The notes: generated by a model from the sequence alone, not told the origin. DNA of 64,000 nt from Microcoleus sp. FACHB-1515 (GCF_014696105.1 NZ_JACJPO010000058.1:1-64000); one strand, 5' to 3'; shown: positions 27,099-33,841, counted from the stretch's first letter. Program-made: numbers and translations.

Positions 27099-29372
27099 AT
27101 GCTCTACTGCCCCAACTATAGCTGCCAGACTCCCAACCCGGAAACGCACAAGTTTTGCCAAAAGTGCCGAACGACGCTGCCAAAGCACTACCTGTGGGCG
27201 ATCGGTGAACAGGTGGCGGCCACCAAACCAGGGGAACTGGTGCAAAGCCGTTTCTTGTGCAAGGTTCCAGGCGTTTTTCTTGACACCAAACCTGGGCTAA
27301 TTGGCGAGCCTGCGATCGAAGTGCCGCCTTCCTTCACCAGCTATCTTAGGCTGTCGCCCTACCAGCTTCATGTCCCCCAGGTGTATGAAGTGCTGGACGC
27401 CAAAACCGTCATGCTCGACGAAGCAGCGGTCGCGGTGATGGCGAACGGCGAAGTGCAGGTGCTTCCAGCTTTGAAAGAAGTTTGGTCGCAAGCCTCCGCC
27501 CTGCGGCAGCTAAGCTGGCTGTGGCAAATTGCTTCCTTGTGGCAGCCGTTGTCGATCGAACACACCGCCGCCAGTTTGCTGCAAAATCAACTGCTTAGAG
27601 CAGAAGGCGGCATCGTTCGCCTGCTAGAGCTTGTGCCACCGCAAGACACCTCGCCAACATTGATGCAGCTTGGCGAACAGTGGGCACTGTGGACGCAAAC
27701 TGCCGACCCAGCGATCGCCGAGTTTTTCGATCGCCTCTGCCATCAGTTGATTACCGGAGAAATTCGGCAGTCCGAACAGTTGGTCGATCTGCTCGATCGA
27801 GCGATGGAGACAATCGCCCAGGGGCAGCAGTTACAAATTCACATCGCCACCCGCACCGACCAAGGCCCGACGCGCCAGCGCAACGAAGACGCTTGCTTTC
27901 CGCCCAGCGGCACGGTGAAAACCTTGACGATTAGCGCCAATCAAACCGCTGCTGATCCGGCTTTGGCGATCGTCTGTGACGGCATCGGCGGACATCAAGG
28001 CGGCGATGTCGCGTCAAATCTGGCGATCGATACGTTGGGTGAACAGCTACAGGGCATTCACGCCGAACAATTGAATCCGGCTGAATTAACCGCCGCGCTG
28101 GAAGCCGCAGTTTGGGCAGCCAACGATCGCATCAGTCAGCGCAACGATAGCGAACAGCGGCTCGATCGCCAGCGCATGGGTACAACCCTTGTCATGAGCT
28201 TGGTGCGCGGCCACGAGCTATACACCACGCATGTCGGTGACAGCCGCGCCTATCGAATTACGCGCTGGGGCTGTCGGCAAGTCACGCTGGATGATGACAT
28301 CGCCTCGCGGGAAGTGCGATTGGGCTACAGTGCTTACCGCGAAGCGCTGCAAAATCCCGGTTCCGGTTCGCTGATTCAAGCCCTGGGCATGGGCGCATCA
28401 CACAGTCTGCATCCGACCGTGCAGCGGTTTGTGCTGGATGAAGACTGCGTATTTCTGTTGTGTTCGGATGGACTGAGCGATAACGATCGCGTCCACGAAA
28501 TTTGGGACAGCGAAATTTTGCCGCTGCTCAACGGCGGCAATCTCAGCCGCGTCTGCGATCGACTCGTCGAACTAGCCAACACGCGCAACGGCCACGATAA
28601 CGTCACGGTTGCTCTGCTGCACTGTCAGGTGAGCGATCGCGGTGTCGTCCCGCCGCTGAATCTGCCTGCGCTGCAATCGGTGACGACCTCACCAACTGCT
28701 ACCGTTCCGGTTGCGCCCAAGGCGATCGCTCCCGCTACTGCCGCTCCACCACCTGCCGCCGCACCCAATTCAACCCTGAAAACGCAAATTGTTAAACCTG
28801 CGTCCACCAAACCACGCCTGCTACCGCTGCTGCTGAGCATTGTGATTTTGCTGGGCATTGGAGGCGGCTTGGCGGCCTTGCTGTTTCCCAGTTTGTTTGG
28901 CCGCCGGATTGCCTCGAATCCGTCTGATCCGCCAGATCCATCTCCAACAACTTCACCGACTGCAACTGCTTCGCCTGTTCCGCCGCTGCAAGTCAATTCG
29001 TTTTTGGCGATCGCCCCTGCCACCAATTCGCTCCCGCTCCTCGCTGAGCCGAGTACCGCAGGTTCAGCCGATGCCGTGCGGCAGCTACCAGTGGGAACAG
29101 TTTTGCAGGTGTTGAAGCGCCAAAGCAGCAATCAGGAGCGCTGGGTGCAGGTGCGCGTTTGTACGCTGCCCGATGCGCCTGCGGCGGGAACGCCCGCAAC
29201 GGCGATCGACAAACTCAACGTCAAGCCTGGCGACACAGGCTGGCTGGCTGAAGCGACTGCTGCCCCGCTTGTCGCTCAGTCGCCTGCCACGATCGAGCAA
29301 GGCGCTTGCACACCCGCCGCTTCTCCGCCTGCTTCCCCCGCTTCAACTCCAGCAGGGAACCAGATAGACTGA
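27099..29372 (+). CDS. Zinc-ribbon PP2C Ser/Thr phosphatase with membrane anchor
   Basis: A 757-residue protein. The N-terminus has a zinc ribbon (Cys at about 4, 9, 21 and 24: YCPNYSC...FCQKC). A helical region spans about 40-240. A PP2C phosphatase domain lies at about 250-510 with intact metal sites: DQGPTRQRNEDACF, VCDGIGGHQGGDVAS, GTTLVMSL, HVGDSRAYRI and LLCSDGLSDN. A Pro/Ala-rich linker leads to one transmembrane segment (about 570-590). The last 150 residues include an SH3-like part (PVGTVLQVLKRQ, ERWVQVRVC). It should remove phosphate from Ser/Thr in the cytosol. The CHAT-FHA gene follows after 51 bases. Confidence 0.92.
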   Translation: MLYCPNYSCQTPNPETHKFCQKCRTTLPKHYLWAIGEQVAATKPGELVQSRFLCKVPGVFLDTKPGLIGEPAIEVPPSFTSYLRLSPYQLHVPQVYEVLDAKTVMLDEAAVAVMANGEVQVLPALKEVWSQASALRQLSWLWQIASLWQPLSIEHTAASLLQNQLLRAEGGIVRLLELVPPQDTSPTLMQLGEQWALWTQTADPAIAEFFDRLCHQLITGEIRQSEQLVDLLDRAMETIAQGQQLQIHIATRTDQGPTRQRNEDACFPPSGTVKTLTISANQTAADPALAIVCDGIGGHQGGDVASNLAIDTLGEQLQGIHAEQLNPAELTAALEAAVWAANDRISQRNDSEQRLDRQRMGTTLVMSLVRGHELYTTHVGDSRAYRITRWGCRQVTLDDDIASREVRLGYSAYREALQNPGSGSLIQALGMGASHSLHPTVQRFVLDEDCVFLLCSDGLSDNDRVHEIWDSEILPLLNGGNLSRVCDRLVELANTRNGHDNVTVALLHCQVSDRGVVPPLNLPALQSVTTSPTATVPVAPKAIAPATAAPPPAAAPNSTLKTQIVKPASTKPRLLPLLLSIVILLGIGGGLAALLFPSLFGRRIASNPSDPPDPSPTTSPTATASPVPPLQVNSFLAIAPATNSLPLLAEPSTAGSADAVRQLPVGTVLQVLKRQSSNQERWVQVRVCTLPDAPAAGTPATAIDKLNVKPGDTGWLAEATAAPLVAQSPATIEQGACTPAASPPASPASTPAGNQID

Positions 29373-29423
29373 AGAAGGAGAAGAAATTTAAGTCTTGCCA
29401 GGTTTTAACATCAGCGGTTTTAT

Positions 29424-31034
29424 ATGCCAGAGAGTCCTTGCCTGAGCGTGGCTATCGATCGCCTCACCGCAGCCCGACCCGACCACTACGCCATTTGGGT
29501 ATTGCAGCCGCCTTATCCCAGCGGCTACGGCCATTTCGATCGAATTTGGCCGGACTCGCTGACGCAGATTTGGCAAACCTGGCACAGCCTCTATTCGATG
29601 CGCGGTCTGCCGGAAATTCCGAGAGTTCCGGTTGAGTACGTGGTTGCGCCGCCGCCGATCGCAACAGACGCCCAACCGAATATTCCGCCCGCCAGTCAGG
29701 GCAGCCGCGTCATGCAGCAGTTGGGCGTCTCGCTGTGGAAATGGCTGTTTGACGGTCCAATTCAAAGCAGCTTCGATCAAAGTCGCGGCATGGCGATCGG
29801 TCAAGGACTGCCGCTGCGCCTCAGGCTCGACATTCGCGACCCGGATTTGATCGCGCTGCCCTGGGAAATTATGCAGCCGCAAGAAGGAATGCAGGCAGTT
29901 TCGCTCAGCCAGCAGTTGCTCTTTAGCCGCACCAGTAGCGCAGTCGAGCCGCTGCCCGACTTGCGATCGGAACAAAGCCTCAACATTTTGCTCGTCCTGG
30001 GCTTGGAGCAAGATGGACAAAGCAACGCTCGGCTCCAGCTTGATGAAGAAGCCAGTGCCCTGTCGCGAATTTTGCAGCGATCGACCCTGGAGCAATCGAC
30101 CGATGCGGCGACTGCTGCGCCGCCCTGCCGCTGCCAGGTGAAAACGCTGTTGCAGCCGAGCGCCGCTGAACTGGCACAGCACCTCGAAACCGAGCAGTAC
30201 AACGTCTTTTTCTATTCGGGACATGGCGAAGTTGGTGCAGATGGTGGCCTGCTGTTTTTGGCCGACGATGCCACGATGAACGGTACGGAACTGGCGCAGG
30301 TGTTGAGCCGCTGCCGTGTCAAGCTGGCCGTGTTCAATTCCTGCTGGGGCGCACAGCCCGACGAAACGCAAAAAAAAGCGATGCCGCGATCGAGTCTGGC
30401 CGAAGTGCTGCTGCATCACGGCGTTCCGGCTGTGCTGGCGATGCGCGATTCGATCGAAGACCGCGAAGCCCTCAGCTTCATTCAAGTCTTTGCCCGCGAA
30501 CTGGCGCAGCGCAAATCGATCGATCGGGCGGTGGCGATCGCTCGTCAGCATTTGCTCACCGAATACAAATTCAACTGGCCTGCCTGGACGCTTCCGGTTC
30601 TCTACATGCATCCGCAGTTTGATGGCGAACTGATTGCGGTCGATCGCAGCCGCACCGTCTTTCGCGAAAAAGAAGGCCGCAAGCCGCCGACCCCAACGGC
30701 AATTTTGCGATCGCTGGTTCCGCCCGCGAAAGTTTGCTCGATGCAGGGCGGCCTCATTCGGATTGGCCGCAGCGACAACAACGACTTTGTGCTCAGCGAA
30801 GAAGGAGTGTCGCGCGACCACGCCACGATCGTTCGCACGGCGATGGGCAATGGCACCCAGCCCGCTTACTTCTTGCGCGATTCGTCTCGCTATGGCACAT
30901 ACGTCGCCGAATCAAACGGCTGGCATCTCGTGCATCAGCGCGAAATTCCACTGCGATCGAAAATGCAGCTAAAATTTGGCAGCGAAGACAATTCGCCGCA
31001 CGAATTTGTCATCCACGAGCCAGCGGCGAACTAA
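29424..31034 (+). CDS. CHAT (caspase-like) plus FHA domain protein
   Basis: A 536-residue protein with no signal or membrane segment. Residues about 110-400 form a CHAT domain, a caspase-HetF-associated peptidase fold. The catalytic His is in FFYSGHGEV and the Cys in AVFNSCWGAQ, both present; GVPAVLAMRDSI and FIQVFARELAQ complete the fold. The C-terminal 120 residues form an FHA domain (IRIGRSDNNDFVLSEEGVSRDHA) that reads phosphothreonine. Proximity to the PP2C gene suggests that FHA binding, and so protease targeting, is set by the phosphatase; this is inference. A terminator follows at 31046-31070. Confidence 0.9.
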   Translation: MPESPCLSVAIDRLTAARPDHYAIWVLQPPYPSGYGHFDRIWPDSLTQIWQTWHSLYSMRGLPEIPRVPVEYVVAPPPIATDAQPNIPPASQGSRVMQQLGVSLWKWLFDGPIQSSFDQSRGMAIGQGLPLRLRLDIRDPDLIALPWEIMQPQEGMQAVSLSQQLLFSRTSSAVEPLPDLRSEQSLNILLVLGLEQDGQSNARLQLDEEASALSRILQRSTLEQSTDAATAAPPCRCQVKTLLQPSAAELAQHLETEQYNVFFYSGHGEVGADGGLLFLADDATMNGTELAQVLSRCRVKLAVFNSCWGAQPDETQKKAMPRSSLAEVLLHHGVPAVLAMRDSIEDREALSFIQVFARELAQRKSIDRAVAIARQHLLTEYKFNWPAWTLPVLYMHPQFDGELIAVDRSRTVFREKEGRKPPTPTAILRSLVPPAKVCSMQGGLIRIGRSDNNDFVLSEEGVSRDHATIVRTAMGNGTQPAYFLRDSSRYGTYVAESNGWHLVHQREIPLRSKMQLKFGSEDNSPHEFVIHEPAAN

Positions 31035-31045
31035 GCTTAACTTTG

Positions 31046-31070
31046 ATCTCCGTCATTTGGCGGAGATTTT
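31046..31070 (+). terminator. Intrinsic terminator after the CHAT-FHA gene
   Basis: ATCTCCG (31046-31052) pairs with CGGAGAT (31061-31067) around an 8-base loop, followed by TTTTAA. It is 11 bases after the stop codon and should end the PP2C/CHAT-FHA transcript. Confidence 0.75.
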
Positions 31071-31150
31071 AACCAGTTGCGGAACTGGCCGGATTGGAAA
31101 TGTAGGTATGTATCGTTAACCCCTAGATGATTAGGCATTAGGAGCAGGTC

Positions 31151-31732
31151 ATGGCAGATTCGATGTTTTCTCGTGCAGAAATTGAACAAGATCTGCTGCA
31201 ACTGATTTTGCAAGAGCAGGTGCAGTATCCTTGGAATCCGGCTGAGTCGGAAGCGTTTTTTGCGGGGATTGAAGCTGCAACTGCCGACGAGTGGGAAACT
31301 GGAGAACTCGCCGCACGAGGACACGCGATCGCCAGTCAGCTTGATTCGCTTTGGGCGCAGATCGATCAAACCGCCGCGACTCCCCAGGTCGCCACCTTGT
31401 TCTCGCGCGTTGCAGGCCGCGTCCCGCAGCAAATTATCGCGGGCATCGTGCAGCGATCGCAGCAGTTGATTACGTCAAATTTGTCGCTCACCGAGCGGAT
31501 GGTGCAGTGTGTGCAGGAGTTTGTCGCGGACTGTAATCCCGAAGATCTGCTGCTGACCAGTCGGAAATTTGCGGTTGTGCGATCGCGCGGCACCACGAAC
31601 AACTTTGTAGACACGGCATTACAGCAGGTGCGTGAAGCAGACTGGAGCGAACTTTCTGCTGGAGAGCAAGCCTTTTTGAGTTTGGCGATCGCTCATGCTG
31701 CCCTGACCGACGAACCTAAGGCAAGCGAGTAA
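31151..31732 (+). CDS. Unknown helical protein between CHAT-FHA and FHA-PrsW
   Basis: A 193-residue soluble protein that I do not recognise. AGGAG sits about 7 bases before the ATG. It looks almost entirely helical, with one segment of mixed charge (CNPEDLLLTSRKFAVVRSRG, about 124-146). There is no signal peptide or membrane segment. Its stop overlaps the 3' end of the convergent FHA-PrsW gene by 17 bases. The terminator before it suggests its own promoter in 31071-31140. Confidence 0.75.
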   Translation: MADSMFSRAEIEQDLLQLILQEQVQYPWNPAESEAFFAGIEAATADEWETGELAARGHAIASQLDSLWAQIDQTAATPQVATLFSRVAGRVPQQIIAGIVQRSQQLITSNLSLTERMVQCVQEFVADCNPEDLLLTSRKFAVVRSRGTTNNFVDTALQQVREADWSELSAGEQAFLSLAIAHAALTDEPKASE

Positions 31733-33002
31733 AGCGGGTCGCAAAGTTAGAAGGTCGATTGGGCGAGAGCGCTCTGGCTTTGAGAATCGCCGCCGCCAAA
31801 AATGCGTAAGACAAGACGCCAACGATCGCCAGAACGACAATATTAAACACACCTGTCGCATTCCAAAGCGCGTGCAAACTTGCCGCACTTAGATAGCCGA
31901 CTCCCAAAATTCGCCACCGATGATTCGGCTTCAGCACGCTCAAGCCGATGAAATAGCCAAAGTAGCCGCTGTAGGCCATGTGTCCAGCCACCAATCCCAG
32001 GATGCGCGGAATCAGCAGTTGCAAACCCAGCAGTTCACCCGACTGAATCGGCAGTGACGATTCTTGTGCGATCGCCGGAACGTACTGCCGCAAAGTTTCG
32101 ATCAGCGCAAAGCCGACCGCAGCCGCCGCTCCCAGCAAAATACCGTCTAGCGGTTCGCTCACCTCGATCGACTTCCAGCGACGCGGCAAAATTGGCGTCA
32201 CGCCGCACAGGACGAGAACCGGAATCGCTTTGAGCAGTTCTTCCATTAAGCCTGCGCCAAAAAACATCCGCACCAGCAGAACCGGAAACGGAATGAATTC
32301 GTCCGGAGCGGGAATTGCACCAGGCAGCAATTGGCGAAACACAAAGCCAAACACGGTCAGAATTGGGCTAAGCAAAATCAGCATCATGCTGGCTGCCACG
32401 CCCAGCAGCAGCCACCAGGGTTTGTGCTTGCCGCAAAGCTGGTAGACAAAATAAAACGCCGCGCCCGCTAGATACGCCGCCAGCAGCAAATTAAACGCGG
32501 TTGGCCGACCGATCGCCACAAACAGCAGCACGACAAACGCCACGTTCAACATCGCCGGAATCAAAAAGGCTTTGCGCGTTAAATCGCGCCCAGTCGAAAC
32601 GATCGGCAAAAGCTGACTGAGCGTTACCTGATCGGGCGACGCGATCGAACTGGCCGCAGACGCGATCGACGCAGACTGCGGCTGCTCAAAGATAAACTGC
32701 GGTTCGCCCAAACCTAAAGCAATGCGATCGCCATTTTGCAGCAGCCGACAGCCGGAAACGCGCTGACCGTTGACAAACGTACCGTTGGCGCTGTTCAAAT
32801 CGCAAATTTGCCAGCCGAATTCGATCGCGCAAACTTTCGCGTGCTGACGTGAAATGCCGCCAAAAAGCTGCGAGTCAAACACAATTTGACACTGCGGGTC
32901 GCGCCCGATTAGCACGTCTGCCGCATCGAGAGCAATGATGGGTGCGCCTGTGGCGATCGCAGCGGGCAGTCGTCGCAGTCGGGCTGAAGAAACAGAATTC
33001 AT
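31716..33002 (-). CDS. FHA domain fused to PrsW-family intramembrane metalloprotease
   Basis: A 428-residue protein starting at the ATG at 33002; the in-frame start at 33041 lies inside a terminator and is rejected. Residues about 20-105 are an FHA domain (VLIGRDPQCQIVFDS, ISRQHAKV, DLNSANGTFVNGQRVSG). About eight membrane segments follow. The PrsW motifs are present: GLMEELLKAIPVLVL, GHMAYSGYFGYFIGL and LHALWNATGVF, giving the Glu-Glu and His metal ligands. PrsW in Bacillus cleaves the anti-sigma factor RsiW. Here the cytosolic FHA domain probably couples cleavage to phosphothreonine binding. Confidence 0.9.
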   Translation of the reverse strand: MNSVSSARLRRLPAAIATGAPIIALDAADVLIGRDPQCQIVFDSQLFGGISRQHAKVCAIEFGWQICDLNSANGTFVNGQRVSGCRLLQNGDRIALGLGEPQFIFEQPQSASIASAASSIASPDQVTLSQLLPIVSTGRDLTRKAFLIPAMLNVAFVVLLFVAIGRPTAFNLLLAAYLAGAAFYFVYQLCGKHKPWWLLLGVAASMMLILLSPILTVFGFVFRQLLPGAIPAPDEFIPFPVLLVRMFFGAGLMEELLKAIPVLVLCGVTPILPRRWKSIEVSEPLDGILLGAAAAVGFALIETLRQYVPAIAQESSLPIQSGELLGLQLLIPRILGLVAGHMAYSGYFGYFIGLSVLKPNHRWRILGVGYLSAASLHALWNATGVFNIVVLAIVGVLSYAFLAAAILKARALSPNRPSNFATRFTRLP

Positions 33003-33066: not shown

Positions 33067-33264
33067 CTACAGATTGGCTCGCGCATCGCGCACGGCGGCA
33101 AAGAAGCACACAACCGTCAGCGGAATGCTCAAGGCGAGGGTGACAGCGGTTGCAACCGTGCCCCACTGCGGCGCACCCGAAGAAAGCTCAAAGACCGAAC
33201 CGACTGCGGCAATTCCCGCGATGCAAGAGCCAGCGAGAAACGCGCCGCTTTTGGGAGTCATCAT
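33067..33264 (-). CDS. Small two-helix membrane protein
   Basis: A 65-residue protein. Two ATGs (33264, 33261) follow AAGGA by about 10 bases; the longer frame from 33366 would run inside def and is rejected. Two hydrophobic helices (about 8-24 and 31-53) are joined by a short loop, and the C-terminus is AAVRDARANL. No family recognised. It starts 13 bases after def ends and is probably cotranscribed with it. Confidence 0.6.
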   Translation of the reverse strand: MMTPKSGAFLAGSCIAGIAAVGSVFELSSGAPQWGTVATAVTLALSIPLTVVCFFAAVRDARANL

Positions 33265-33277
33265 GGTGAGATTTTCC

Positions 33278-33841
33278 TTATGCGATCGGTTTGACGGCTT
33301 GAGCAGAAAAGCCATACTTGGCGAGTTCTTGATTGAGCGCCAAAGTATTTTCGACGCGATCGACAAACATAATGCCGTTCAGGTGGTCAATCTCGTGCTG
33401 AATCACTCGCGCCAGCAGACCTTTGGCCGTGAAGCGCTGAAGCCGTCCGTTTTCGTCTTTGTAGGACACTTCCACGACTTCCGGGCGCGTCACATCGAGG
33501 AACACCTTGGGAATGCTGAGGCAGCCTTCTTGGATGACGCAGGTGTCACGGCTTTCCTGCTTAATTTCCGGGTTGATCATCACGATCGGCGGCGTCGCGG
33601 CTTCTTCGAGGTTGATATCGACCACGAGAATTTGCTTGCTGATGCCAATTTGTGGAGCGGCGAGGCCGATGCCGTCTTCGCTGTACATCGTTTGCAGCAT
33701 TTCCTTCGCCAACTGCCGCACTTCGCTGTCGATTTTGCTGATGCGCTTGGCGGGCTGACGCAGGACTCGATCGCCCAGATAGTGCAGCTTTAACGGAGCC
33801 TTTGCCAGCTTTTTCTTTTCAACCAGAATTGGAGAGGTCAT
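33278..33841 (-). CDS. def: Peptide deformylase
   Basis: A 187-residue metalloenzyme that removes the formyl group from new proteins. The three motifs are intact: GIGLAAPQIG, EGCLSIP with the metal Cys, and QHEIDHLNG with the two metal His and catalytic Glu. The N-terminus has the basic leader usual for bacterial PDF1B-type enzymes. Length normal. Confidence 0.97.
   Translation of the reverse strand: MTSPILVEKKKLAKAPLKLHYLGDRVLRQPAKRISKIDSEVRQLAKEMLQTMYSEDGIGLAAPQIGISKQILVVDINLEEAATPPIVMINPEIKQESRDTCVIQEGCLSIPKVFLDVTRPEVVEVSYKDENGRLQRFTAKGLLARVIQHEIDHLNGIMFVDRVENTLALNQELAKYGFSAQAVKPIA

Follow-up and report, generated by a model that had tools for sequence, protein, structure and literature searches.

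A gene cluster in the window, the 64,000-nt stretch of DNA analysed here, points to an undescribed protein-cutting switch. Its natural unit is a pair of genes encoding CHAT-FHA, a HetF-related, predicted CHAT cysteine protease with a C-terminal FHA domain, and H193, an unnamed all-helical protein of 193 amino acids, with a PP2C phosphatase as a frequent third member. The CHAT-FHA/H193 pairing is well supported. In the reading favoured here, at a probability of about 0.4, the unit would operate like the HetF-PatU3 pathway: H193 would be the dedicated partner of CHAT-FHA, most likely its substrate, and would be cut in or beside the variable loop that follows an invariant arginine (Arg146). For the upstream PP2C, a membrane-anchored protein with a zinc ribbon and a putative dead kinase-like domain, we infer the part of scaffold and switch, including recruitment and the direction of control: it would recruit or restrain CHAT-FHA at the membrane, via the kinase-like domain or a TQ[IVL] motif in its linker, and would alter the phosphorylation state of the CHAT-FHA complex.

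The genes of the cluster lie on the plus strand in the order PP2C (positions 27099 to 29372, 757 amino acids, from the ORF call and Pfam), CHAT-FHA (29424 to 31034, 536 amino acids) and H193 (31151 to 31732), the last being a near-obligate companion of CHAT-FHA. A fourth gene, FHA-PrsW (31716 to 33002), encodes a predicted glutamic intramembrane protease and is a convergent neighbour outside the core; because it lies on the minus strand, tail to tail with H193 and overlapping it by 17 bp, it belongs to a separate transcription unit. These four open reading frames had been predicted from the DNA with the same domains; ORF calls confirmed the frames, and Pfam matches above the cut-offs the domains. 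The four genes are preceded on their 5' side by ndhM and followed on their 3' side by genes for a 99-aa hydrophobic protein and then peptide deformylase. The window is of cyanobacterial origin, as shown by ndhM, a cyanobacterial gene, and by the named close relatives, which are cyanobacteria. The hydrophobic protein, which is unnamed (33067 to 33366, minus strand), sits between PrsW and peptide deformylase and is kept alongside both in many genomes. The window was also correctly said to contain no Ser/Thr kinase: of the genome's 27 Pkinase matches, a single one lies on this contig, at position 102061, beyond the window. A kinase linked to the cluster was ruled out, since the window has none and all 27 matches are elsewhere in the genome.

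In an even sample of 116 genomes from the class, H193 and CHAT-FHA are each present in 53 and FHA-PrsW in 71. CHAT-FHA and H193 occur together in 52 of the 54 genomes that have either one (phi 0.97, Fisher 8e-31, both computed over genomes without correction for phylogeny). One of the two exceptions is an incomplete assembly (G045, 87% complete); in the other (G037), CHAT-FHA is a decayed pseudogene with intact PP2C and H193 on either side. The G037 remnant (locus L066, 8730 to 9445) carries stops and represents a natural recent loss.

Gene order was followed in a second sample of 80 named loci, which comes partly from the same genomes and hence overlaps the first. H193 lies 3' of CHAT-FHA on the same strand in 66 of the 71 named loci with enough sequence. 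PP2C is directly upstream of CHAT-FHA in 43 of 65 (about two thirds), and also in 37 loci of another locus set. Some 100 to 200 bp typically separate neighbouring genes, but genes overlap in a few genomes, H193 and CHAT-FHA doing so in three. The order PP2C, CHAT-FHA, H193 is retained across many cyanobacterial families; thus, the cluster is not due to chance. In Microcoleus and Symplocastrum, CHAT-FHA and H193 adjoin each other in the same orientation amid unrelated genes, and some ten genomes retain both without linkage. Co-occurrence, gene order and these moved and unlinked cases together identify CHAT-FHA and H193 as the natural unit and PP2C as its frequent third member. The original prediction of a module was therefore right in that a conserved one exists, but its core is CHAT-FHA together with H193, a protein that the prediction had left out of its mechanism.

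CHAT-FHA matches the Pfam models for CHAT (74.6 bits, cut-off 24) and FHA (47.1 bits, cut-off 20.7). Both domains are matched in all 46 relatives, and none of the 46 has a TPR match after CHAT. The catalytic residues His267 (codon at 30222 to 30224, plus strand) and Cys307 (30342 to 30344, plus strand) are invariant in 46/46; CHAT-FHA is predicted to be a cysteine protease. The closest NCBIfam model to its CHAT half is HetF (NF045509), whose equivalog cut-off is not reached (175.9 versus 1200 bits). The genome's own HetF-like protein is 33% identical to the CHAT half over 337 amino acids, and the catalytic His and Cys of the two proteins line up. By these comparisons, CHAT-FHA is a paralogue of HetF. 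HetF and CHAT-FHA thus have homologous CHAT domains with conserved His and Cys, and both are encoded by cyanobacterial chromosomal genes; however, in CHAT-FHA the C-terminal FHA domain takes the place of HetF's TM and TPR regions, and genomes hold both proteins. The regulator PatU3 has been reported as a cleavage target of HetF (PMC12288457). A similarly small, dedicated protein target is proposed for CHAT-FHA by analogy with HetF, which acts in cell division and heterocyst differentiation, and PatU3. The H193 gene adjoins its protease gene, whereas patU3 sits in the hetZ-patU5-patU3 cluster.

In the FHA domain of CHAT-FHA (30735 to 30980, plus strand), Ser463 is invariant (46/46), His466 is present in 45/46 and Gly448 is retained. 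The phosphothreonine-binding Arg of the GR motif (Arg449) is found in 34/46, the remaining 12 having Ser, Met or another residue, and in 45/46 the canonical Asn of the NG motif has given way to Tyr, Phe or some other residue. The family's FHA domain therefore does not hold the canonical set of phosphothreonine-binding residues. The window protein has the Arg, Ser and His, with Tyr490 in place of the Asn; because Arg and Ser are there, a phosphothreonine gate is possible for this protein, but it is not certain family-wide. Phosphorylation gating, as originally predicted, is thus possible for PP2C and CHAT-FHA, but the idea is weakened because the FHA domain on CHAT nearly always lacks the Asn and sometimes the Arg. 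CHAT-FHA and H193 might even cooperate without phosphorylation, the FHA domain being a phosphate-independent binding module and PP2C a conserved neighbour with a job of its own. The residue losses just described would fit this, as would the loci, about a third, in which PP2C is not upstream and the occurrence of the same PP2C type in genomes without CHAT-FHA. Such an arrangement is nevertheless unlikely in view of the conserved Ser463 and His466 and of the position of PP2C, which is kept immediately upstream, sometimes overlapping the next gene, across many families.

H193 is all-helical in its predicted structure (pLDDT 84), as had been proposed, and searches of Pfam, NCBIfam and PDB folds gave no convincing relative. 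The protein evolves fast, its relatives being 28-44% identical to the window copy, and the conserved positions are D132, R138, R146, W165 and their neighbours. A conserved motif (31544 to 31591, plus strand), with the family consensus DLxVxARPxAxxMR, ends at R146 and is followed by G/S/D and a variable loop. R146 is invariant in 48/48 sequences and, in the second, overlapping sample from the named loci, in 56/56 distinct motif segments; the stretch from R146 to W165 is variable, with about 10 residues in some sequences and more than 20 in others. The motif ending at R146 is a candidate cleavage or docking site. Outside the animal caspases, caspase-like proteases commonly have Arg at P1, and R146 would therefore be the prime candidate for the cleavage site; counting against this, an Arg may also be invariant for structural reasons. 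The window copy of H193 differs from the consensus in having K139 instead of P, R144 instead of M and an extra S145, with R146 kept and CHAT-FHA intact.

H193 could instead be a stable regulator of CHAT-FHA, whether inhibitor, adaptor or chaperone, in which case DLxVxARPxAxxMR would be a binding surface and the true targets would lie elsewhere. This is a serious if doubtful alternative: near-obligate pairing and adjacency suit an inhibitor or adaptor equally well, the invariant residues include D132 and R138 in a helix besides the loop Arg, and H193 is intact in G037 despite the decay of CHAT-FHA. Against it, the abrupt shift from invariant to variable sequence at R146 is more like a processed linker, although this is a weak argument. 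H193 as substrate is thus preferred only narrowly over H193 as inhibitor or adaptor.

The PP2C protein consists of a zinc ribbon, a kinase-like domain, the PP2C domain, a disordered low-complexity linker, one predicted TM segment and a C-terminal tail. The phosphatase domain had been recognised in the original prediction, but the zinc ribbon and the putative dead kinase-like domain of the N-terminus were overlooked. Pfam matches PP2C_2 at 45.5 bits (cut-off 24), and in the catalytic domain (27831 to 28634, plus strand) the metal-binding residues D264, D294, D457 and D500 are invariant in 37/37 relatives. The four-Cys zinc ribbon (CPNYSC...FCQKC; 27099 to 27182, plus strand) resembles the '4-Cys prefix' of cyanobacterial Ser/Thr kinases, and Ser/Thr kinases of the same genome carry a similar one; its match to the NCBIfam model 4Cys_prefix_kin (E 5e-4) is below the cut-off, and its Cys residues are 90% or more conserved.

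The domain of about 210 amino acids after the ribbon (27183 to 27821, plus strand) matches no Pfam family. Its AF2 model has a pLDDT of 94.7, and the 50 best PDB matches are all kinases or kinase-like proteins, led by PknG and including the MviN/Rv3910 pseudokinase; their probabilities reach 1.00, with TM scores of about 0.3-0.48 and only one E below 0.001. Sequence profiles match real kinases weakly (E 0.018), and the Gly-loop, HRD and DFG motifs are absent from the alignment columns. Model, PDB matches and motif columns together suggest a kinase-like fold that is catalytically dead, an assignment that calls for caution. A periplasmic SH3 domain on the PP2C tail was rejected as a family feature, being matched in only 1 of 37 members.

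Some 15 residues ahead of the TM segment, the PP2C linker carries the motif KTQIVKP (28779 to 28799, plus strand; T562). The pattern T[QRK][IVL][IVLMA] occurs in 24/37 PP2C linkers versus 2.6 expected from shuffles, usually at this same distance from the membrane segment; as a linear motif, KTQ[IVL] just before the membrane is strongly enriched in the family. In its simple version, the TQ[IVL] motif as phosphothreonine ligand of the CHAT FHA domain was rejected, the motif being kept in 10/10 cases of FHA Arg loss. Because FHA residues are partly lost while the linker motif persists, a simple phosphothreonine-FHA dock between PP2C and CHAT-FHA is unsupported. In mycobacteria, MviN, when phosphorylated, attracts FhaA through the latter's FHA domain (PMC12599244). 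That system combines a dead kinase-like domain on a membrane protein with an FHA partner, as would the putative dead domain of PP2C and CHAT-FHA here; in the present case, however, the putative dead domain is part of a phosphatase, and the FHA domain of its candidate partner is partly degenerate and is attached to a protease.

FHA-PrsW has Pfam matches to FHA (65.0 bits, cut-off 20.7) and PrsW (116.7 bits, cut-off 23.5). Its PrsW residues E254, E255, H341 and H377 are invariant in 20/20 relatives, and its FHA domain is fully canonical, with the GR Arg, Ser, His and Asn in 20/20. The catalytic residues are thus intact in all three enzymes, as predicted (CHAT 46/46, PP2C 37/37 and PrsW 20/20 relatives). 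Fusions of FHA and PrsW were noted in 2012 (PMC3482391); the window protein is the same fusion and offers nothing new, and its 24.7 bits fall well short of the 225 set for the PrsW equivalog model. FHA-PrsW is adjacent to the cluster in 22/69 named loci, always convergently. It is found in 28 of the 63 sampled genomes without CHAT-FHA, and CHAT-FHA occurs without it in 10; the presence of the two is weakly associated (phi 0.38 over the 116 genomes). Away from the cluster, it adjoins peptide deformylase in some genomes or stands alone.

FHA-PrsW was therefore rejected as a core member on strand, linkage and phyletic pattern: it is a frequent neighbour, not a component. The conserved neighbourhood expected for all four genes accordingly holds for PP2C, CHAT-FHA and H193, but not for FHA-PrsW. 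In the four-part module first proposed, a kinase and PP2C would determine the marks by which substrates are brought to CHAT-FHA and FHA-PrsW alike, to be cleaved there. The adjacency in about a third of loci, the canonical FHA domain, the intact active site and the weak association with CHAT-FHA are in keeping with such a module, but the opposite strand, the locations beside peptide deformylase or alone, and the genomes that have one protein without the other make it very unlikely.

CHAT-FHA shares its protease fold with the TPR-CHAT of Craspase and other CHAT proteases that have a dedicated substrate. In these systems, the substrate gene is typically near the protease gene. Unlike Craspase, CHAT-FHA has no CRISPR effector, and it carries FHA instead of TPR. 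CHAT proteases are known in defence systems, and PADLOC reports weak similarity to SAVED_CHAT and TmtA, which would be compatible with a defence or programmed-death module whose caspase-like protease is released upon infection. This is exceedingly improbable, however: in many genomes ndhM and peptide deformylase, both housekeeping genes, flank the locus, there is one copy per genome, and the PADLOC models match nothing beyond the CHAT fold. A known defence system was rejected on the same weak CHAT-fold matches. Within the library of papers searched in full text, none names both 'FHA domain' and 'CHAT domain'.

The physiological partners of bacterial caspase-like proteases are rarely known. Here, one such protease and an unnamed protein family are co-inherited almost perfectly in many families of cyanobacteria, and a candidate site is available. 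Also unusual would be the PP2C with its putative dead kinase-like domain, bringing phosphatase, FHA and protease into one cluster. The cluster might then represent a second general cyanobacterial switch beside HetF-PatU3, in which CHAT-FHA cuts H193 after Arg146 and a membrane phosphatase with a dead kinase domain couples Ser/Thr phosphorylation to caspase-like proteolysis; in this full form the proposal is speculative and rather improbable.

The PP2C of the cluster is related in its catalytic domain to the PRK14559 type (NF011149; best stretch 243-512), whose equivalog cut-off it does not reach (288 versus 374 bits). A possible counterpart of this PP2C is Anabaena All1758, for which links with diazotrophic growth, cell morphology and the synthesis of glycolipids have been reported (PMC6213207). 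Proteins of about 460-510 amino acids with the PP2C N-terminal domain (L192, L193, L194 and L195) occur in genomes without CHAT-FHA. The window's own genome encodes further PP2C paralogues, one with a related zinc-ribbon/kinase-like N-terminus (C27:35304-36035) and another that is a true PRK14559 member (C78:42784-44637); the latter ends shortly past the catalytic domain, whereas the PP2C of the cluster continues into a TM segment and a long tail.
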